Origin: Rhodospirillaceae bacterium
GTDB taxonomy: Bacteria > Pseudomonadota > Alphaproteobacteria > Rhodospirillales > JABHCV01
Length of the DNA stretch: 55,063 bases
Direction of reading: 5' to 3'
Assembly: GCA_013204045.1 (NCBI GenBank)
Contig: JABMOQ010000104.1
Location: 1 to 55,063, forward strand
Shown: piece after piece, positions 3,003 to 50,074 of the stretch
Layout of the letters: each line of letters opens with the position of its first letter
Position numbering within the stretch: position 1 is the stretch's first letter
Notes under the pieces: generated by a model
The model's database searches: none
What the model saw: only the letters and a program-made list of their open reading frames with translations
Told to the model about the DNA's origin: nothing
Program-made: the position numbers and the translations under genes

Positions 3003-3175
3003 TCGCTCTTTGCCCTGCTCTTTGCCATTGTCTATATGAAAACCCCCGCCCGTTCTGCCTGCAGGCATCGGGGCGGCGTCATCGGGGGCGCCCATAGGGC
3101 CCTTCCCGCGCCCCGGCCAAAATACAGGCCCATTGATTCCAAAGGGAAAAATGGCTTTGTTTTTTCATTTTTTTT
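3003..3175 (+). ncRNA. possible small RNA (or 48-codon ORF) below an orphan promoter
   Basis: The stretch is GC-rich and self-complementary: runs of C pair with GGGGCGG and CGGGGG, and it contains the GCCTGCAGGC palindrome. It ends in a small CAAAG/CTTTG hairpin followed by T6-C-A-T9 (about 3143-3177), which could act as a terminator. An ATG frame at 3036-3182 encodes 48 residues but has no ribosome site and no family resemblance. I do not recognise the RNA; it does not match the conserved parts of 6S, SRP or tmRNA as I know them. Only the promoter and the T-rich end support it. Confidence 0.22.
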
Positions 3176-6100
3176 TAGTTGATGGCGCTGAGCTTCCGTT
3201 CTTTCAGGCGTTCCCGATAGGCCGCCATGAAGGACTGGAAGTTCTCCACATCGGCGACCTTGCCGGCGATCGAGCGATAGCTGATCAGGCCCAGGGTTTC
3301 CGGGCTGGCGATCAGCTGGAAGGCATCGCGGAAAGGCCCCTGCTCCATGGCCACCCCATAATCGCGCATCAGCCGGTCGATGCCGCGTTCGTCCCTGGCC
3401 AGGGTCTCGGCGATGGCCAGGTTAAGAATATGGCGGCCCACCAAATCGTTAACGGGCTGGTCCGGTCGGGCGCCGAGCAACCGGATCAGGCGGCGCAGGG
3501 TTTGCCCCGCCTGTACCCAGTCTTTATCGCCCCAGAAAATTTCCGTGCGCAGCAGCTCGGCGTCGATGCTTTTGTCCTTGTCCAGCAGGGCCAGGGCTTC
3601 TTCGTTGCTGTACAGTCCTATCAGGGCACGGGCCCTGAGGTGGCGGCGCTGCTGGATCAACTCCTCGGGCAATCCTTCGCCTTCCGAGCCGTCAAGGGCT
3701 CCAATTGCCTCGTCGTATTCAAGGGCGATGATGTGAATAAGCGCCAGCTGCGTGCCGACCCGTGATTTTTCCAACCCTTCCAGGCGGAATTCGACCTGGC
3801 CTTGTAATAGGCGCGTCGCCCGGTCAAGGAGATCCACATCGACCAGCCGGTCGGCCAGCTTGCGGATCATCTCGTCGCCCTTTTCGCCGGGCGGCGTCAA
3901 TTCCTTGAATTCGTCGTAAAGGGCGATGGCGGTGACCGGAGAAAGCTCATCGGCCACGTCATCCAGATAGAGCGAATCGAAGGCTTCCGTCATCTGCTGG
4001 GTGACGTCCGGTGCTTCCTCGTAGTCGCGGAAATGAGTCGCCGCCTGGCGCAGGGTGCGTAGGCCGTTGCGATAATCGCCGATATCAATGTAAAGCGTTC
4101 CCAGGCGGCGCAGAAGGTTGAATTCGAACGCATCGCCGCGCCACGCGAAGCGCAGTTTCTCAAGTTCTTCGGCGGCCTCTCTTTTGCTGATTTTTTTCAG
4201 CTTCAAAAGCAGCTCGGTCCGGGCGATGGCTGCCTTGGCCCGGCTTGGCCGGTGCGGCCCTTCCTGGACCACTTCCCACATACCAACGGCGCCGTCAAAA
4301 TCGCCGGACAGCTCCTTGAGCCGGCCATCCACGAATTCCAGCTGGTTTAGCTGCGCCGCATTTGGCTCTATGGCGCGCACGGTTTCCATATAGCGGGTCG
4401 CCTGTTTGATGTCGCCAAGTTCGATGGCCGCTTCGGCGATAAGGGTGTTAAGGGGAATTTTAAGGGGGTTCGGATAGGGCCGCGTTATGGCCCCGGTGCG
4501 CCTGAGGTCCGGTGCTGCTCCGAACAGGTCGCCGCCATAGGCGCGCAGGACGGCACGCCAGAATCGGGCCTCGTCATTGTCGTCAAGGAGTGGATTGGAA
4601 AAATCTTCGGCGGACTCGGCCAAACGCCCCATAAGAAGGTTCGAGGCGCCGCGGATGCCAAGGAATTCCTTATCCTCGACGATTTCCGGGCGGCTTTCGG
4701 CGATGATCTCCATAACCCCCAGGGCCTCGGCCGCGAAGCCGTTGGAGAAATAAACCCGGACCAGGTCCATGCGGGCCTTTTCCTTGTTCGCCTTGGAAGC
4801 GACGGCGGCGGCCATTTCGTAACGTCGCTTGTTATTATTAAAGGTAATGAAATCCGTCTGGCGCCATTTTTCGAAATCAAAGATGCGGGTTAAAGAGCGC
4901 ATCAACGAGCCCAGGCCGAGACCGAGATCGGCGGTCAGGTTGGCGGTGACCGAAGACAGTTGCAGCCCTGAGGCGCTTGTCAATTCGACCCCCTGGCGCA
5001 GGGGCCGCACCCGCAAATCGTCGCTGGTCGGCTGGATCACCAGCCCCTGGCTGCTCGGCAGGATATGGGCCTGGGGATATTCATAGGCGTTGGCGATGCC
5101 GTAGCCGAGCGGGATCACCGGCACCACGATCAGGCTGTCGCCGACTTCCGGGTCGGTAAAGGCGATGGCATTGCCCGGCTCGGTAACCGGCAGGAACAAT
5201 CGTGCGCCAATCGGCGAATTGGGTTGCGGGGTCGCCTCGATGGCCGTTTTCGGGCCTTCCGGTTGCTGGCGAAATTCAAGAATCCAGGCCAGTCCGGCGC
5301 GCCTGAGATTCGGGTTGATGCCCGTGACCGTAACCATCCTGAGGATGGTGGCGCGGGAGCTGGGAATCTGTTCGATGTAGCGAATGACATTGCCACCGGC
5401 CTTGCGCAGGGCCGCCACATTCATTTTCGCTGCCTTGTCGAATATGACCCACAGGTAGCCGACGCGCCGGAACACGGCAGCCGCCACCGGCTCGTCCCAG
5501 TCGATCTTGATGCCGATGGCCTTGATCTCGCCCGTCGGTGCCGGTGTATTGGCAAGCTGTGCCGCCGGCGACGTCTCCTGAGACGGGGGCTTGGCCGTTG
5601 TCAGTCGGCTGCCACCGCCATCCTGGGCCACGGCCTTCTTGGTCAGGGCCGCAGCATCCCCGGTGGGCGTCGCCTCCGGTGCTGTGCGGGCCGGCGGTGT
5701 CAGGGCGGTCGGTTTACCGGCCTGTTCGACCGGTTGATCCGGGGTCGGCTCTGAGGCCGATTCAGAAGATTGTTCAGGGTCCTGTTCGGGAGCTTGTTCG
5801 GAGGTCTGGGATGTCGGCGGGATCGCGGCCGGTTCGACGGGGGCTGCCGGCATTGCCGCGGGGGCCGGTTGTTCGGGCGGCTTTTTGGGTTCATTGGTGG
5901 CCTGTTGCTCGGCAGCGGCAGGGGCCGGGGCTGGGGCGGCCTCCGTCGGCTTCATGACGTCGACGACAACCTTGGGGCCGGATATGAAGTGCTTTATTTT
6001 GGACGTTTCCGGCACCATCAGGGTGACCGTCAGGCCACCATCGCCGATGCTGGAACGGGCGCCGGAAATCAGCTTCGGTGGTTTTTTCTGCAAGGGTCCA

Positions 6101-6675
6101 AGATCCACATCGGCGGCCTGGTCAAAGCTGATGACCGCCTCGCCGCCGTTCTGGCTGAGGGTGTAGTCGACCTTGCCGGGCCAGTCGAAGACGATGCGGG
6201 TATAGCCTTCGTGAACGCCTGTACGGACCTTGATCCGGGTTGCGGTGAAGGCGGTTTGTGGTTTTTTGTCCTCCGTTTCCGCCTGGGCTGGTTTCGGGGC
6301 CGGGGCCTGTGACGCCTGGCCGATGATATCGACGATGGCGGCGGCCCCCATATTGAAACTGCGGATCTGAAAATCGCCGCGCAAATTGAAGATGACGCTG
6401 CGCCCGTCAGCCCCCGCCGTCGCACCGGCAAGATATCCTGCCAGCGCCTGCACCACGCCATCATAAGAAGCCTCTATTGGGCCATTGAAGCGAACCGTCA
6501 GGCGGCGTCCTTGGGTGCTGGCCGTAAACGATACCGGTGATGACCGGTTGAATACAATACGTCCATAGCCCTTTTGCGGAGATGCCTGGACCTCGACCGG
6601 TTCGGCGGTTGCGGTGGCCGACAGAAAAGCCGCCAACAACACGTTCATGAAAAGGATTTTGAAATATGTACGCAT
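3175..6675 (-). CDS. large periplasmic TPR/helical-repeat protein of the motor operon
   Basis: 1166 residues beginning with a signal peptide (about 1-24, ending ATATA-EP). Two similar beta-rich segments follow, each with a GYxRIVF pattern (KGYGRIVFNR at about 36, EGYTRIVFDW at about 157), resembling AMIN-like modules. Next comes a Pro/Ala/Glu/Gln-rich linker (about 240-385), a third beta segment (about 386-480), and a long helical C-terminal half with degenerate TPR-like repeats. The start codon overlaps the stop of motB (TGATG), so the two are translationally coupled. I infer a periplasmic accessory to the flagellar stator, with the AMIN-like parts perhaps touching peptidoglycan or outer-ring proteins. 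Proteins of this layout occur beside motB in related genomes, but no function is certain. The linker would be expected to vary between strains. Confidence 0.85.
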   Translation of the reverse strand: MRTYFKILFMNVLLAAFLSATATAEPVEVQASPQKGYGRIVFNRSSPVSFTASTQGRRLTVRFNGPIEASYDGVVQALAGYLAGATAGADGRSVIFNLRGDFQIRSFNMGAAAIVDIIGQASQAPAPKPAQAETEDKKPQTAFTATRIKVRTGVHEGYTRIVFDWPGKVDYTLSQNGGEAVISFDQAADVDLGPLQKKPPKLISGARSSIGDGGLTVTLMVPETSKIKHFISGPKVVVDVMKPTEAAPAPAPAAAEQQATNEPKKPPEQPAPAAMPAAPVEPAAIPPTSQTSEQAPEQDPEQSSESASEPTPDQPVEQAGKPTALTPPARTAPEATPTGDAAALTKKAVAQDGGGSRLTTAKPPSQETSPAAQLANTPAPTGEIKAIGIKIDWDEPVAAAVFRRVGYLWVIFDKAAKMNVAALRKAGGNVIRYIEQIPSSRATILRMVTVTGINPNLRRAGLAWILEFRQQPEGPKTAIEATPQPNSPIGARLFLPVTEPGNAIAFTDPEVGDSLIVVPVIPLGYGIANAYEYPQAHILPSSQGLVIQPTSDDLRVRPLRQGVELTSASGLQLSSVTANLTADLGLGLGSLMRSLTRIFDFEKWRQTDFITFNNNKRRYEMAAAVASKANKEKARMDLVRVYFSNGFAAEALGVMEIIAESRPEIVEDKEFLGIRGASNLLMGRLAESAEDFSNPLLDDNDEARFWRAVLRAYGGDLFGAAPDLRRTGAITRPYPNPLKIPLNTLIAEAAIELGDIKQATRYMETVRAIEPNAAQLNQLEFVDGRLKELSGDFDGAVGMWEVVQEGPHRPSRAKAAIARTELLLKLKKISKREAAEELEKLRFAWRGDAFEFNLLRRLGTLYIDIGDYRNGLRTLRQAATHFRDYEEAPDVTQQMTEAFDSLYLDDVADELSPVTAIALYDEFKELTPPGEKGDEMIRKLADRLVDVDLLDRATRLLQGQVEFRLEGLEKSRVGTQLALIHIIALEYDEAIGALDGSEGEGLPEELIQQRRHLRARALIGLYSNEEALALLDKDKSIDAELLRTEIFWGDKDWVQAGQTLRRLIRLLGARPDQPVNDLVGRHILNLAIAETLARDERGIDRLMRDYGVAMEQGPFRDAFQLIASPETLGLISYRSIAGKVADVENFQSFMAAYRERLKERKLSAIN

Positions 6676-7382
6676 CAGAATTCACCGACCGTCGGGAAGA
6701 CAACCACATCGACCCGGCGCGCTAACGCCCGGCGGCTCTGTTCGGGCATATCCGGCAGGTCATTATAACCGCTGTCAGCATATCCGAAGGCGACAATATC
6801 TTCCGTGTACCCGGATCGACGAATGGAATTGGCGACTGCTGCGGCGCGCGCTATGGAAAGTTCCCAGTTCGATGCAAAGCCGCTGCCGACAGGCGCATCA
6901 GGATCCGTATGGCCGTTGATGCCTACCCGGTTACCGATATTGCGAAGAACCCCACCCAGATTGAACAGGGCGCGTCTGGCCTTTTCTTCAAGTACCGCCT
7001 TGCCGGGCTGGAACATCAAATCACCGGGAAGGGCGATGACCAAGCGGTCTTCAAGTCGCATCAATATGCCATTCTTTAGCAATTCATCCTGGGCTACGGA
7101 TTCTTCAAGTACCGCCGCCAGATAATCAAGATTAATGGCACGCTTGCGGAATAATGTCGCGATGTTAAAGCTGGAAGTTGCCGCCGATTCCGCTTTCGTG
7201 CTCGAGGGATTAAGACTCTGCGACAGCGCATCAATGACATCGTTCCAGCGATCAACCTTGATACTCGACATCGAAAACATCAGGACGAAGAACGTCAGCA
7301 TCAAAGACACAAGATCAGTGAACGTGATCATCCAGGCCACGCCCTGCTTGGTCTCCATACGAATGTCGTCTTCGTCGTCCAT
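6675..7382 (-). CDS. motB: flagellar stator protein MotB
   Basis: Stator subunit that couples ion flow to rotation and anchors the stator to peptidoglycan. The N-terminal membrane helix (about 15-38) contains Asp23 in the TFTDLVSLM motif, the position of the ion-binding aspartate of MotB/PomB. The C-terminal OmpA-like domain shows FQPGKAVLEE, NGHTD, NWELSIARA and ARRVDVVV, the residues that bind peptidoglycan. The 235-residue length is slightly short for the family. It lies 11 bases after the MotB-like gene and overlaps the TPR gene by one base. Its partner motA is not here but about 42 kb away at 49259. The sequence cannot tell whether protons or sodium are used. Confidence 0.92.
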   Translation of the reverse strand: MDDEDDIRMETKQGVAWMITFTDLVSLMLTFFVLMFSMSSIKVDRWNDVIDALSQSLNPSSTKAESAATSSFNIATLFRKRAINLDYLAAVLEESVAQDELLKNGILMRLEDRLVIALPGDLMFQPGKAVLEEKARRALFNLGGVLRNIGNRVGINGHTDPDAPVGSGFASNWELSIARAAAVANSIRRSGYTEDIVAFGYADSGYNDLPDMPEQSRRALARRVDVVVFPTVGEF

Positions 7383-7393
7383 GAATACGTTGC

Positions 7394-8092
7394 CTAGTTT
7401 TTTTCGCCGTTTTTTGTTTCAATAAATTTGAGCTGCGCTTCATCGATATCACGGATATAGAACCAGATGCTGATCTCCTTGGGATCGCCATGTTTGATGC
7501 CTATGGCAACGCTATCCGGCGGAGCCCCGCGGCCTAGCATTTCTCTTGCAAAAACGCCTGCTCTTGCAATTTCAAGCGTCTCGCCGATGGGTAGACTTTT
7601 GCCCACCGCATAAGCTGTGCCGATAATAAATTCCATGTCATAGCGGAACCCGGTTGGTCGGCTACTCAGCGAGGCGACGATACGATCCAGCAGTGGCTGG
7701 TTCGAAGGTCGTATATCAGCCTTATCCGTCTCGAACAGAATATCTGAATTAAGTTTTACGCGCATCAGGCGACCGGGCTGAATAACATCCACCTTGGTGA
7801 CCTGAATCGTTGTCGAGAAAATTTGAGTTACTTCCTGCTGGAATTGCTGTCCGGCTAGAACTTCACCATCGGATCCGGAAACCGCCGTCAACTGAAGGCT
7901 GGGAGGCAATATTGTCGTAAAGGTGGAAGACAGGCTATCCATGGCCGCCTGGGATTTAACCTCTTCAACGGTCGAAATGCTGACTAAAAGGATGAAAAAT
8001 GCAAGAACCAGAAGGTACAACGCCAGGAACAAGGCAATGCTGCTCCCACCATGGCCTTCCGTCGGATCGTGAAACTCTTCCTGAGCGGACAT
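7394..8092 (-). CDS. MotB-like protein lacking the ion-binding aspartate
   Basis: 232 residues with the MotB plan: a short cytoplasmic tail, one membrane helix (about 18-40, ending FFILLVSIS), a plug-like linker, and a degenerate OmpA-like domain with LFETDKADIRP and ETLEIARAGVFAREM. Aligning the FF(V/I)L segment with the neighbouring MotB puts Ala24 where Asp23 should be, and the helix has no acidic residue. The peptidoglycan motif NGHTD is replaced by IIGTA. It therefore cannot conduct ions like MotB and probably does not bind peptidoglycan in the usual way. I infer a structural or regulatory stator partner, perhaps forming a heterodimer with the true MotB. It lies six bases after cheZ in the same operon. 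Confidence 0.85.
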   Translation of the reverse strand: MSAQEEFHDPTEGHGGSSIALFLALYLLVLAFFILLVSISTVEEVKSQAAMDSLSSTFTTILPPSLQLTAVSGSDGEVLAGQQFQQEVTQIFSTTIQVTKVDVIQPGRLMRVKLNSDILFETDKADIRPSNQPLLDRIVASLSSRPTGFRYDMEFIIGTAYAVGKSLPIGETLEIARAGVFAREMLGRGAPPDSVAIGIKHGDPKEISIWFYIRDIDEAQLKFIETKNGEKN

Positions 8093-8098
8093 ATGTGT

Positions 8099-8740
8099 TT
8101 AATCAAAACCTGCCAATAATGCGTCAATCTCCGCCTGGGATGTTGCCTTATCCGAACTCTGCGGTCCGTTAAGGAGGTCTTCGTCGCTTAGTACTTTTTT
8201 GTCTTTCTTCGTTATGGTTTTCTTTTTCACAGGACGGCCATCACCGAAGGCATTTAGAAGGCCGTCAATTTTTTCTTCAATCTCCTTGAGCGTGCTGACC
8301 ACCTTGGTGATACGTTGACCAGTGATATCTTGAAAGCCGCAGGCCTCGTATATATTGGTCGTCGCAGTCATCAGGGAAGCGGCAGCCTTTCCGTCAAGGC
8401 CAGACATGGTTTCTTCGATAATTTCTGTGGCGTCCATGATGGCATTGGTGGCATCTGCCGTCGCTTCGATGATGGCATCGAGCTCGTCAGAAGCTGTCGG
8501 CAGGAAATCATCCTTTACCTCGTCAGGGCGCAGGGAAAATATCTCTTTCTTGGCATTTTGGATATATTTGGCGAGCTCTTCCAGTTCGCCAAAAAGGCTC
8601 TCCTTGCTGGGAGCAGAGCCTTTCGACCCCTTCATTACCTTATCGACGACCTTTACCGCCTTACGTGTTTTGACTGGAACCCTGGCGACAGCTTTCTTTT
8701 TCTTTGGTGTTTTTTTAGCCTTAGGCTTGCGGGTTGGCAT
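8099..8740 (-). CDS. cheZ: chemotaxis phosphatase CheZ
   Basis: Dephosphorylates CheY-P. After a Lys-rich N-terminus (1-45), a long helical hairpin contains the catalytic segment CGFQDITGQRITKVV, with Asp138 and Gln142 at the positions of E. coli CheZ Asp143 and Gln147. The C-terminal CheY tether reads SQAEIDALLAGFD (201-213). It resembles the E. coli FliM N-terminal CheY-binding peptide more than the usual CheZ tail, and also matches FliM of this operon (NQDEIDSLLGFD). The 213-residue length is normal. GGGGAG lies before the ATG. It sits directly downstream of cheY, so substrate and phosphatase are made together with the switch protein. No cheA, cheB or cheR is in the window. Confidence 0.92.
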   Translation of the reverse strand: MPTRKPKAKKTPKKKKAVARVPVKTRKAVKVVDKVMKGSKGSAPSKESLFGELEELAKYIQNAKKEIFSLRPDEVKDDFLPTASDELDAIIEATADATNAIMDATEIIEETMSGLDGKAAASLMTATTNIYEACGFQDITGQRITKVVSTLKEIEEKIDGLLNAFGDGRPVKKKTITKKDKKVLSDEDLLNGPQSSDKATSQAEIDALLAGFD

Positions 8741-8751
8741 TAGGTGCTCCC

Positions 8752-9138
8752 CTAGAATTCACCAAGCACGCTAACAAGCTTGGACTTCAGGGTCTCCGCA
8801 TTAAAGGGCTTAACAATATAGTTGGAAACACCGGCTTCCTTGGCAGCAATCACGTTTTCAGACTTACTCTCGGCCGTGATCATAATGAACGGCAGGTGTT
8901 TCAGGGTATCGTCTTTACGCACATCCCGCAGTAGTTCGATCCCGGTCATCGGTTCCATATTCCAGTCGGATATGACCAACCCAAATTTATCGCCGCGCAG
9001 CTTCTCAAGTGCCATAGTCCCGTCTGTGGCATCTTCAACATTTTCAAAATGCAACTGCTTGAGGAGATTTCGAAGAATCCTGAGCATCGTATTGTAATCG
9101 TCCACGATCAGGACTTTCATATTCATATCAACAGCCAT
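8752..9138 (-). CDS. cheY: single-domain response regulator CheY
   Basis: A stand-alone receiver domain of 128 residues. The acidic pair is in LIVDDYNTM (Asp13-14), the phosphorylated residue is Asp58 in VISDWNMEP, the switch Thr is in MITAES, and the conserved Lys is in YIVKPFN. MTGIELL and the Trp after the phospho-Asp are typical of CheY proteins that act on the motor. The ATG at 9138 has GGAGAG about nine bases upstream; ATGs at residues 5 and 7 are possible but have poorer sites. Phosphorylated CheY would bind the EIDSLL peptide of FliM and be cleared by CheZ, both encoded in this operon. Confidence 0.95.
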   Translation of the reverse strand: MAVDMNMKVLIVDDYNTMLRILRNLLKQLHFENVEDATDGTMALEKLRGDKFGLVISDWNMEPMTGIELLRDVRKDDTLKHLPFIMITAESKSENVIAAKEAGVSNYIVKPFNAETLKSKLVSVLGEF

Positions 9139-9262
9139 TTAATCTCTCCATTCTGGCTTCTCCAGGGTTCAAATAAACAAAAATACAATGCCCCGGATTC
9201 TCCCCTAACTCATTGGGTATATTAGTTAAGACAAGGAAGCTGCGTTCGCAACCTTTTTTCGG

Positions 9263-9997
9263 TCAGCCACCAGCATTTAGTGCCTCATTCGGTAAATTCC
9301 TAAGCCTTGATAATTCAACGGTAATTTCGGTTGCTTTCGCCGGATTCATTTTTGCCATGATTGGCGCCAACTTGCGTTCATTCATGCGTTCGGTGACAAG
9401 AAGCAGGGTATCCATTTCCAATTCCTCGAAAATACGTGCAGCATCTTTTGGTTTCATATTTTCATAAATTTTAACCAGGCTCTGAATCTTGGCAACTTGC
9501 TGTTCATCGTAAGTTTTTATGAGTTTTTCGATCGTATTCTGAAAATTCTTCAGTTCCGCAATCTTGTTCTCGATCCTGTCTTCTGCCGCCGTCAGAAGAC
9601 CTTCGCGCATTGCCATTTCTTTTTCACGGTCTTCCAGATTCTCGCGACGATCAGCAAGACGTTGCAGAAGATCGATTTCGGCCTGGGTCAACAGTGTCGG
9701 GTCATTGGTAACGATACGCGAGACCGTTTCAGGGTCTTCTTCAGGCTCGTCCATGATATTCTTCCCGGCGGCCACAGCGTCGGTATTTTCACCGGCAACC
9801 GGATCGGCAGGCATGCCATCCGCAGGCGGAGTCGTCGTCCCCTGAGCCTTGGCCGACGAAACCGAAATGCTCTCCGACATTGCCGCCCTGCCGCTGGAAA
9901 GGTTATCGACCTTGTCCCAGATGTTGCCGAGCTTGATCGTCAGCATCAGGACAGATGCAAATATCACAGTCGGTATAAAACGGAGCTTCATCGTCAT
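9263..9997 (-). CDS. motE: MotE-family flagellar protein (MgtE-N domain)
   Basis: 244 residues with an N-terminal hydrophobic signal or anchor (about 5-23), an Asp/Pro/Ala-rich spacer, a coiled coil (about 105-175, RENLEDREKEMAMREG and onward) and a C-terminal MgtE-N-like helical domain (KPKDAARIFEELEMDTLL, then MNPAKATEITVELSR). This is the layout of the MotE family; in Sinorhizobium MotE is a periplasmic chaperone for a motor protein. Here it lies between DUF6468 and cheY in the motor operon, which fits a stator-assembly role. The start has no strong ribosome site; ATG at residue 3 is equally possible. The 124-base gap to cheY is the longest in the operon. Confidence 0.85.
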   Translation of the reverse strand: MTMKLRFIPTVIFASVLMLTIKLGNIWDKVDNLSSGRAAMSESISVSSAKAQGTTTPPADGMPADPVAGENTDAVAAGKNIMDEPEEDPETVSRIVTNDPTLLTQAEIDLLQRLADRRENLEDREKEMAMREGLLTAAEDRIENKIAELKNFQNTIEKLIKTYDEQQVAKIQSLVKIYENMKPKDAARIFEELEMDTLLLVTERMNERKLAPIMAKMNPAKATEITVELSRLRNLPNEALNAGG

Positions 9998-10048
9998 TTA
10001 TAAGTATCGTCCTTCTTGCTGTCCCGTCTTGCCTCAATCGAAAGTGCC

Positions 10049-10552
10049 CTAACGAACGGAACGCAAAGCTTCTATCAATTCTTTTTCGGCGCGCAATCTT
10101 TCCGCGTCGTTGTTTTCATCGCCCAAACCATCATCCTTCATACCGAAGGTGCTGTTGCCCCTGAAGGCATCGCCGATGGTTTCAATACCAATTGGTTCCA
10201 CGGGTCTCTTGGCCGCGCTTCGCGGCGCCATGTCTACTTCCCCGCGAGAACTACGAACGGCATTTTCCAGACGATCAGCAGCAGATGTGCCGCGATCTAT
10301 CAGAAAAGCCAAATCATCGTTCAACGCTTGAGCTTTTTCAATTCTGTTCTGCAAATCGGTTGTCGTCGCCTTCAGGCGCTGGATGCTATCATCGGCCCGG
10401 CTTGTGGAGTCTCCGAAAGTGGTCGCCAGCCGTTCAAGCTCTTCTTTATGGCGGCGCAGACTTCCAAGCCTTTTGTTAAGCACAGCGGCATAGCCGATGG
10501 TAGCCACCAGCAATACGGCTATGAGAATATCCAGTCCCAACGATAACGTCAC
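10049..10552 (-). CDS. DUF6468 flagellar-operon membrane protein
   Basis: 167 residues: one N-terminal membrane helix (about 7-25), a long coiled coil (about 30-115, with Ser/Thr/Asp/Arg heptad-like repeats) and a basic, flexible tail. This pattern and the position between fliM and motE fit the DUF6468 family found in alphaproteobacterial flagellar clusters. Its start overlaps the fliM stop by four bases (ATGA), so the genes are coupled. The topology, a short cytoplasmic or membrane anchor with a coiled coil, would suit an adaptor between switch and stator, but no experimental role is known to me. Confidence 0.75.
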   Translation of the reverse strand: MTLSLGLDILIAVLLVATIGYAAVLNKRLGSLRRHKEELERLATTFGDSTSRADDSIQRLKATTTDLQNRIEKAQALNDDLAFLIDRGTSAADRLENAVRSSRGEVDMAPRSAAKRPVEPIGIETIGDAFRGNSTFGMKDDGLGDENNDAERLRAEKELIEALRSVR

Positions 10553-11727
10553 GCTTCGTCCCCTCCATCACTGATAAGGCGGTCTTCAATACGAATGGCT
10601 ATTTGCTCGCCGCGCCGTCCCATCGATCCCGTATACAGATCCAAGTCGCCGCAGCTTAACCGCACCTGAGATGTCGGCGTTGCGCTCAGCATGATTTGCG
10701 ATCCTACTTTGAGAGCAAAAACTTCACTTAGCTTCATCGTCATCTTGTCGAGAACTGCCTCCAACTCTACGTCAGTCAACCACAATTCTTCGGCCAAGTG
10801 CGTTTCCCAAATTGAGTCACGACCGAACTTCTCGCCCATAAACATCTGCAATAGAAGCTCACGAACCGGCTCCAGTGTAGCATATGGCAACAGCATTTCC
10901 AGCCGACCGCCACGATCTTCCATGTCGATCCTCAGGCGGATCACGATTGCCGCGTTTGAAGGCCTTGATATTGTTGCAAATCGCGGGTTCGTTTCCAGTC
11001 TGTCGAAGCGGAAAGTCACCGGGCTGAGGGGCTCGAAAGCAGCCGAGAGATCCCCAAGCATGACATGAACCATACGTTCAACGAGACTGCGCTCAATGGT
11101 CGTATATGGGCGGCCTTCAATGCGCATGGCAGCCGTGCCTCGGCGTCCGCCTAGAAGCACATCAACGATTGAATAGATCAGGGATGAATCGACTGTTATG
11201 AGGCCATAGTTATCCCATTCTTCCGCCTTAAATACGCTCAGCATGGCCGGCAGAGGAATCGAGTTTAGGTAATCGCCAAAACGAATGGAGGCGATGTTAT
11301 CAAGAGAAACCTCCACATTATCGGAGGTGAAATTGCGCAAGCTAGTCGACATCAGACGCACCAACCGGTCGAATACGACTTCCAGCATCGGCAGGCGCTC
11401 GTAGGATACGAGCGCGCTGTTTAAAATGGCCTGTATGCCCGACTTTTCAATACCTTCGTCGTGTTCGTCGTCAAACCCCAACAGGCTGTCAATTTCGTCC
11501 TGGTTAAGGACGCGGGTCGACTGTCCGGCCGATGAGGACGTGTCTGCGGCTCCGTCGCTATCGCTGCCGCCGGCCATCATGGCTTCCCATTCGGCCGCTA
11601 AATCATCCTGATCGTCACCACCGCCACCGCCACCATCGGATTCGGCGGCTCCACCATCGCCACCTGCAGCGGCTTCCCATTCAGCCATCATGGCTTCCTG
11701 ATCGACGTCGTCTCCCGGTGCTGTCAT
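10549..11727 (-). CDS. fliM: flagellar motor switch protein FliM
   Basis: C-ring protein that receives CheY-P and sets rotation direction. The core (about 95-390) has the GIQAILNSALVSYERLPMLEVVFDRLVR start, a CheC-like middle domain and a C-terminal SPOA domain (VRLSCGDLDLYTGSMGRRGEQIAIRIEDRL). It is longer than usual (392 residues) because of an acidic, Gly-rich N-terminal extension. The extension carries two AEWEA motifs (residues 15-19 and 45-49) before the CheY-binding peptide LNQDEIDSLLGF (74-85), which in E. coli FliM is at the extreme N-terminus. It lies 38 bases after fliL and overlaps DUF6468. fliN is not in this operon; it is at 48880. Confidence 0.95.
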   Translation of the reverse strand: MTAPGDDVDQEAMMAEWEAAAGGDGGAAESDGGGGGGDDQDDLAAEWEAMMAGGSDSDGAADTSSSAGQSTRVLNQDEIDSLLGFDDEHDEGIEKSGIQAILNSALVSYERLPMLEVVFDRLVRLMSTSLRNFTSDNVEVSLDNIASIRFGDYLNSIPLPAMLSVFKAEEWDNYGLITVDSSLIYSIVDVLLGGRRGTAAMRIEGRPYTTIERSLVERMVHVMLGDLSAAFEPLSPVTFRFDRLETNPRFATISRPSNAAIVIRLRIDMEDRGGRLEMLLPYATLEPVRELLLQMFMGEKFGRDSIWETHLAEELWLTDVELEAVLDKMTMKLSEVFALKVGSQIMLSATPTSQVRLSCGDLDLYTGSMGRRGEQIAIRIEDRLISDGGDEA

Positions 11728-11765: not shown

Positions 11766-12308
11766 TTATTGGACAAGCATCTCCTTGAACAAAACATCAT
11801 TAATTTTTGCCGGAGCAATCGCCGCGCCGACCCTTTTCAGCAATTCCTCTCGCAATCGATACATACCGGCAGACCCTTTCAGGTCTTCGACCCGCAGTTC
11901 CCTGAGGTAAACCTGGAAATTATCGACGATCTTGGGCATGACCCTTTCAATATTTGGCACATCCTCGGGTTTTTCTAGTTCTAAGCTGATCCTGATCTTC
12001 AAAAAGGTCGACTTGCGACCCGCCGTACTCAGATTTACCAGCAACTCGGGTAAATCATAAAAAACGGCATCCTGGGCAATTCCGTCCCCGTCTTCCGCTG
12101 ACTGTCCGTCGCCTGCAATCATGTCGATCAGCGGCTGCAAGAGGCCCGTAAAATAAGCCGCACCGGCGCCGCCAACCACGAGAAGCAATGCCAAACCAAT
12201 GATAATGAAGAGTTTTTTCTTGCCACCCCCTTCGGATGAAGCACCTTCCTCATCATCGTCTAGATCATCTTCGTCCTGTTCCTCGTCGAATTCGTCATCG
12301 TCGGCCAT
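11766..12308 (-). CDS. fliL: flagellar basal-body protein FliL
   Basis: 180 residues: a highly acidic cytoplasmic tail (Asp/Glu in more than half of the first 22 positions), a membrane helix (about 32-53, LFIIIGLALLLVVGGAG) and the periplasmic FliL domain with YDLPELLVNLSTAGRKSTFLK and the C-terminal INDVLFKEMLVQ. FliL forms a ring around the stator plug and links it to the basal body. GAGAG precedes the ATG. It is the first gene of the nine-gene minus-strand operon ending at 3175. A CtrA-like box lies about 95 bases upstream (12400-12414), consistent with fliL being an early (class II) flagellar gene in Caulobacter. Confidence 0.93.
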   Translation of the reverse strand: MADDDEFDEEQDEDDLDDDEEGASSEGGGKKKLFIIIGLALLLVVGGAGAAYFTGLLQPLIDMIAGDGQSAEDGDGIAQDAVFYDLPELLVNLSTAGRKSTFLKIRISLELEKPEDVPNIERVMPKIVDNFQVYLRELRVEDLKGSAGMYRLREELLKRVGAAIAPAKINDVLFKEMLVQ

Positions 12309-49258: not shown

Positions 49259-50074
49259 ATGGCTGACGATGCTCCAAATATAACGGTCGGACGAAAGAAA
49301 TCCTCCATTGATCTGGCCACCATTGTTGGCCTGTTATGCGGTTTTGGCCTGATCTTGACGGCGATCATCATGGGCGGTGATGCCTTGTCTTTCATCAATC
49401 CGCCATCGATCCTGATTGTTGTGGGCGGGACATTTGCCGTGACGACCATGTGTTTCACCATCAATGAAATGATCCGTACCGGGGGCGTCATTGGAAAAAC
49501 ATTTTTTTACAGCTCCCGCGATCCGTCCGACGCCGCCATTCAAGTTCTGCAAGTCGCGGAACTTGCCCGCAGGCAGGGCGTACTCTCCCTTCAGGGCGTC
49601 CTCGATTCACTAAGGGCGGAGCCTTTCCTGCACAAAGGTATGCTGATGGTTGTCGATGGGACGCCGGGCGAAGAAGTCGAAATCATCATGCGCCGCGACC
49701 TGAATGCAACCCGGCAACGCCATCACAAAAGCTCCAGCGTGCTTCGCAAGGCAGCCGAATTCGCCCCCGCCATGGGATTGATCGGCACCCTGATCGGGCT
49801 GGTGCAAATGCTTGGTAATCTGGCCGATCCCTCGACCATTGGACCGGCAATGGCAGTAGCGTTGTTGACGACATTTTACGGTGCCGTTCTAGCCAACATG
49901 GTGTTTTCGCCGATGGCCTCGAAGCTGGAACGTAATTCCAACGAAGAAGCCATGGTTAATACCGTGTACATGATGGGGGCGGCCTCAATCGGCAGGCAGG
50001 AAAATCCGCGCCGCCTTGAAATGCTCCTGAACAGCATCCTGCCGCCTGCTAAACGTATTCAATATTTCGACTGA
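49259..50074 (+). CDS. motA: flagellar stator protein MotA (PomA-like)
   Basis: 271 residues with four membrane segments: SIDLATIVGLLCGFGLILTAIIMG (about 16-39), NPPSILIVVGGTFAVTTMCF (47-67), and the pair AAEFAPAMGLIGTLIGLVQML / PAMAVALLTTFYGAVLANMVF near 165-220. The cytoplasmic loop (EVEIIMRRDLNATRQRHHKSSS) holds charged residues that touch FliG. The family prolines are present (APAMGLIG). The N-terminal SIDLATIVG resembles sodium-type PomA, but ion use is not settled. It starts 10 bases after fliN, and its motB partner lies at 6675. Confidence 0.92.
   Translation: MADDAPNITVGRKKSSIDLATIVGLLCGFGLILTAIIMGGDALSFINPPSILIVVGGTFAVTTMCFTINEMIRTGGVIGKTFFYSSRDPSDAAIQVLQVAELARRQGVLSLQGVLDSLRAEPFLHKGMLMVVDGTPGEEVEIIMRRDLNATRQRHHKSSSVLRKAAEFAPAMGLIGTLIGLVQMLGNLADPSTIGPAMAVALLTTFYGAVLANMVFSPMASKLERNSNEEAMVNTVYMMGAASIGRQENPRRLEMLLNSILPPAKRIQYFD

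Follow-up and report, generated by a model that had tools for sequence, protein, structure and literature searches.

The window analysed here is a stretch of 55,063 nucleotides, a single contig (JABMOQ010000104.1) of the Rhodospirillaceae bacterium assembly GCA_013204045.1, whose genome of 2.68 Mb is 98.7% complete and has its relatives among the Rhodospirillales, e.g. Thalassospira and Terasakiella. On its minus strand, a gene for a second MotB-type protein, hereafter MotB', stands directly in front of a normal motB, and its membrane helix lacks the acidic residue of MotB; such an acid-less twin precedes the normal motB in many alphaproteobacteria. The genes concerned are the following:

7394..8092, minus strand: motB', acid-less MotB paralogue (232 residues, start codon ATG), with a helix at residues ~16-40, Ala24 at the Asp position and a divergent OmpA-like periplasmic domain.
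6675..7382, minus strand: motB, canonical MotB (235 residues), with plug and OmpA domains, Asp23 and the NGHTD motif.
49259..50074, plus strand: motA without adjoining motB, in the order fliN-motA-NtrC-like-flhA, the proposed partner of both MotB proteins.
3175..6675, minus strand: motK-like gene (1166 residues, periplasmic AMIN-like/TPR protein), conserved directly after motB.
8099..8740, minus strand: cheZ, matching Pfam CheZ.
8752..9138, minus strand: cheY, matching Pfam Response_reg and scoring 156.9 bits with the NCBIfam CheY model, below that model's cut-off of 189.
9263..9997, minus strand: motE-like gene (MgtE_N-type, coiled coil), assigned by domain match and synteny.
10049..10552, minus strand: gene for a DUF6468 protein, assigned by domain match and synteny, at the pflI position of Cereibacter.
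10549..11727, minus strand: fliM, named from sequence and synteny.
11766..12308, minus strand: fliL, named from sequence and synteny.

The minus-strand genes follow the order fliL-fliM-DUF6468-motE-cheY-cheZ-motB'-motB-motK-like, with only 6 nt between motB' and cheZ and 11 nt between motB' and the downstream motB. The original prediction had placed motB' in one operon with motE, cheY and cheZ, and both the domain matches and the conserved synteny bear this out. When MotB' (ALFLALYLLVLAFFILL) is aligned with MotB (ITFTDLVSLMLTFFVLM) on the invariant FF, Ala24 falls opposite Asp23, and the MotB' helix contains no acidic residue at all, as had been claimed.

Using a family profile, we found MotB' in 136 of 199 genomes of the order and in 88 of 385 genomes of the class, the weakest of these 88 matches being ordinary MotBs. 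An earlier scan of contigs with the single MotB' protein as query had given no match, and none was found in a plasmid collection. From these genomes and named contigs, 197 distinct motB'-motB pairs were assembled for comparison. At the column of the Asp, MotB' carries Ser (87), Gly (57), Ala (47), Asp (4), Pro (1) or Asn (1). The neighbouring MotB, by contrast, keeps Asp in all 196 readable cases. The original prediction was to fall if homologues had an acidic residue here, and by this test it was not refuted, with Ser, Gly or Ala in 191/197 MotB'.

The tandem motB'-motB is intact in essentially every locus checked, the exceptions being contig ends or weak matches to ordinary MotBs, and the order fliL-fliM-DUF6468-motE-(cheY-cheZ)-motB'-motB-motK-like recurs in almost every alphaproteobacterial locus of sufficient length; loci without cheY or cheZ still keep the motB'-motB-motK-like block. 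Carriers include many Thalassospira, Terasakiella pusilla, T. brassicae, Magnetovibrio blakemorei, Pararhodospirillum oryzae, Roseospira visakhapatnamensis and a metagenome-assembled genome labelled Rickettsiales. A literature search limited to open-licence papers returned no description of MotB'.

MotB' is still recognizably MotB-like. It matches Pfam MotB_plug (PF13677) with 32.7 bits (cut-off 24), as do 94 of 99 relatives at E ≤ 0.01, whereas the Pfam scan gave no OmpA match in MotB' and both domains in the neighbouring MotB. The profile of these 99 relatives aligns with PomB (8bri) along the helix and the periplasmic domain (E = 3.5e-12), and also matches the MotB chains 6ysf and 6ykm. The AlphaFold model (predicted local distance difference test score, 86) displays the helix, a plug helix and an OmpA-like domain, and its best Foldseek matches in the PDB include the periplasmic domains of Salmonella and H. 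pylori MotB (E ~1e-7); the modelled periplasmic fold is therefore still MotB/OmpA-like despite the absent NGHTD. This loss of the peptidoglycan-binding HTD motif had been noticed from the single sequence and is real: only the Arg of HTD...R remains, near-invariant (180/197). At position -6 from the Asp, Trp is invariant in MotB but does not rank among the usual residues in MotB'. Compared with proton-conducting MotB, the protein thus has the plug region and the OmpA fold, and lacks the helix Asp and the HTD motif. Its MotB-type helix and OmpA fold are equally unlike the accessory proteins, i.e. soluble MotK (signal peptide, AMIN) or MotE (coiled coil). An identity of MotB' with MotK was ruled out, MotK being an AMIN-domain protein with a separate gene here.

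The window's motA (49259-50074) lies alone between fliN and an NtrC-like gene, ahead of flhA. The same fliN-motA-NtrC-flhA block without MotB was present in 20/20 MotB'-bearing genomes examined, in most of them at a distance of tens of kilobases from motB'-motB but within one flagellar cluster, and the natural unit is therefore one motA with two motB-type genes. On this genomic evidence, two paralogous B-subunit genes are served by one A-subunit gene. A recent stator survey assigned B subunits by their proximity to MotA (PMC12505986); because MotA stands alone here, surveys of this kind can miss motB', a widespread stator gene. The genome has three other MotB genes, on contigs C82 (L001), C96 (L003) and C98 (L002), each with an adjoining MotA; three further complete pairs are many for a genome of 2.7 Mb.

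We also sampled, without aiming at an exhaustive survey, 20 genomes of the order that have no MotB' match. Nine have no detectable FliG and are therefore probably non-flagellated. Among the 11 flagellated ones, nine encode conventional MotBs only, each with an adjoining MotA; in one, a contig opens with a window-type MotB, so that an upstream gene would be cut off, and one, a 76%-complete genome, has no detected MotB. None of these 20 genomes showed an intact locus with a window-type MotB but no MotB'. The claim that motB' is not a stray paralogue is thus strongly supported by the conserved operon, the pairing with MotB, the joint absence and the orphan MotA.

The MotB' helix is about as constrained as that of MotB, with a mean column entropy of 0.72 versus 0.67 over the same loci, and roughly twice as constrained as the plain anchor helices encoded in the same operon (FliL, 1.39; DUF6468, 1.66; MotE, 1.56). 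Outside the helix, the two proteins are about equally variable (1.97 for MotB', 1.81 for MotB). A mere anchor helix should vary like those of FliL, DUF6468 and MotE; the constraint is therefore our chief reason for thinking that the MotB' helix lies buried within protein, most plausibly the MotA ring. The gene is under purifying selection, with a ratio of non-synonymous to synonymous substitution rates (dN/dS) of ~0.03 for motB' and ~0.05 for motB in the closest pair of the window's family. This low dN/dS, together with Gly, Ala or Ser in 191/197 proteins, rules out chance, decay, a pseudogene or misannotation. An in-frame TAG reported inside two homologues in fact follows immediately upon the protein's natural end and has no significance.

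The four MotB' with Asp belong to three lineages (L072; L197/L198; L252; at about 1.0-2.2 kb in each), and all four also carry Trp six residues before it. In a tree computed without the MotB' helix, they are nested among Ser/Ala relatives (support 0.95 for L197/L198), which suggests that Asp and Trp were regained in three lineages. Nucleotide identity of the helix to the adjoining motB is 70% in L072 and 67% in L252, against a mean of 49%, and is weakly raised in L197/L198, which is no more than suggestive of gene conversion from the adjoining motB as the source of the Asp. L072, L197, L198 and L252 would be natural revertants and could be compared physiologically.

In a non-alphaproteobacterial family of the same phylum (f216, f235), the order is motA-motB''-motB-fliL-fliM-fliN, with both MotBs directly behind motA, and the site residue of MotB'' is Glu, or Gln in two genomes (L358/L359). 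This three-gene stator operon is found at loci L356-L359 and L363 (G588, G670, G585, G605, G648). All 85 sampled MotB' form one group apart from all MotBs (support 0.998), and MotB'' appears as its sister (support 0.94), a placement whose long branches call for caution. On this placement, two B subunits may have been paired before the alphaproteobacteria arose, and the acid would have been lost later. At another locus, L360 (G586; 8565-10145), motA is followed by two MotB genes with near-identical helices, both with Asp, a tandem duplication without acid loss.

We consider an asymmetric MotA5-MotB-MotB' stator with one proton site to be the best explanation, and on balance a probable one. MotB' would be a dedicated B subunit without a proton site, and one MotB (Asp) and one MotB' (Gly/Ala/Ser) would form a heterodimeric axle within a pentamer of the orphan MotA, protons being carried by the Asp of MotB only. 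In the 5:2 model, one proton corresponds to 36 degrees, two carboxylates alternating around five MotA sites (PMC9389320). A single carboxylate would instead give 72-degree steps and ~5 protons per turn of the MotA ring rather than 10, and each unit would use half the ions and develop half the maximal torque. The periplasmic domain of MotB' might bind a MotE/MotK-like/FliL scaffold instead of peptidoglycan, a contact that would fix the orientation or the activation of the unit. In Cereibacter, MotE and MotK are needed for rotation and bind MotB2 (PMC10954123), and FssB/CC_2058 of Caulobacter is needed for rotation too (PMC7885107). A heterodimeric unit would have a front and a back that do not interchange, a possibly relevant feature given that MotB' has no HTD motif and that its gene lies near those of the scaffold proteins MotE and MotK-like. 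We count in favour of this one-site stator the acid-less site, the tandem, the orphan MotA, the joint absence, the helix constraint, the regain of Asp, the second lineage and the purifying selection. The original prediction had suggested a stator with one dead subunit: this is the best-supported reading, in which the MotA5-MotB-MotB' complex is itself what we infer.

Three points limit this reading. Mutants of E. coli MotB at Asp32 interfere with the wild type, which is usually read as a need for both Asp residues. Co-evolution of MotB with MotB' did not rise above noise in a mean-field direct coupling analysis of the 197 pairs (effective number 127), where, apart from a handful of couplings, the share of inter-protein pairs among the best-scoring ones was close to the chance expectation; the analysis thus speaks neither for nor against contact. 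Finally, operon linkage and joint absence would fit a scaffold that acts with MotB outside the MotA ring as well.

Such a scaffold is the main rival, although we regard it as rather unlikely: MotB' would be a structural adaptor outside the MotA pentamer that binds MotB, MotE and the MotK-like protein in the periplasm and recruits or activates an ordinary MotA5-MotB2 unit, its helix being merely an anchor. The lost HTD motif and the diverged periplasmic domain would suit this role, as would the place of motB' between cheZ/motE and motB-motK-like and the dependence of Cereibacter and Caulobacter rotation on periplasmic proteins, but a helix far more constrained than the anchor helices of its own operon would not, nor would its FF and plug pattern, which are those of a channel helix, or the apparent regain of Asp and Trp in three lineages. 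The structural scaffold, offered as the alternative in the original prediction, is thus weakened by this channel-like constraint and retains a lesser share of probability. Separate non-conducting MotA5-MotB'2 units, competing with active MotA5-MotB2 for sites at the motor as a brake or a reserve, are improbable. MotB' could in principle share the same single MotA, and its helix has no acidic residue; however, that the two genes are so strictly paired, overlapping or lying close together, suggests a fixed 1:1 supply, a dispensable brake should have been lost alone somewhere, with no such case in the sample of 20 genomes, and regain of Asp would convert the brake into a motor. Finally, it is very improbable that MotB' helps proton transport via another helix residue (Ser or Tyr), in a stator chemically different rather than half-dead: Ser is more frequent at the site than any other residue (87/197), Tyr or Phe stands two positions later and in the related lineage Glu or Gln occupies this position, but Gly and Ala, neither able to carry a proton, account for 104/197, and the MotB' helix has no further conserved residue, acidic or basic, that could be ionised.

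Returning to the one-site stator, MotB' shares with MotB/PomB (MotA5-MotB2; PF13677 and PF00691) the single N-terminal helix with FF, the plug region, the OmpA-like domain and the location in a flagellar operon; it differs by the missing helix Asp and HTD, the mostly lost Trp at -6, the company of a normal MotB and, in alphaproteobacteria, the lack of an adjoining MotA. Conventional multiple stators (MotAB with MotCD, MotAB with MotPS) also bring more than one MotB-type protein into a cell, but in these each B subunit is paired with an A subunit of its own and carries an Asp. The Myxococcus gliding motor AglQ/AglS with AglR likewise combines two MotB/TolR-type B subunits with one MotA/TolQ-type A subunit; unlike MotB', both are predicted to keep the Asp, and it is not a flagellar stator (PMC9389320). 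According to the same 2022 review, whether these B subunits form a heterodimer is unknown (PMC9389320). MotK and MotE of the Cereibacter sphaeroides Fla2 system and FssB of Caulobacter are alphaproteobacterial stator accessories with counterparts of both in the motB' operon, but they are soluble periplasmic proteins without a channel helix.

Current 5:2 motor models have two equivalent B-subunit carboxylates alternating, with a ten-fold symmetry described as 'almost certainly universal' (PMC9389320). An asymmetric stator, if true, would break this symmetry, and the motB'-motB tandem would be a natural experiment with one B subunit inactive by design: proton consumption per revolution, the size of the steps and the torque of each unit could then be measured, with the addition or removal of Asp as the genetic handle. 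It is possible, although we hold this wider claim only tentatively, that a whole alphaproteobacterial branch and the second lineage (Glu/Gln) rotate their flagella by an obligately asymmetric stator whose units have a single proton site, take five ion steps in each revolution and are inherently polarised towards the rotor or the scaffold.

Among the neighbouring genes, the motK-like product is likely a distant counterpart of Cereibacter MotK and of Caulobacter CC_2058/FssB. The DUF6468 gene lies between fliM and motE, matching the position of pflI in Cereibacter and Caulobacter, and its product may be the same protein as that of pflI.
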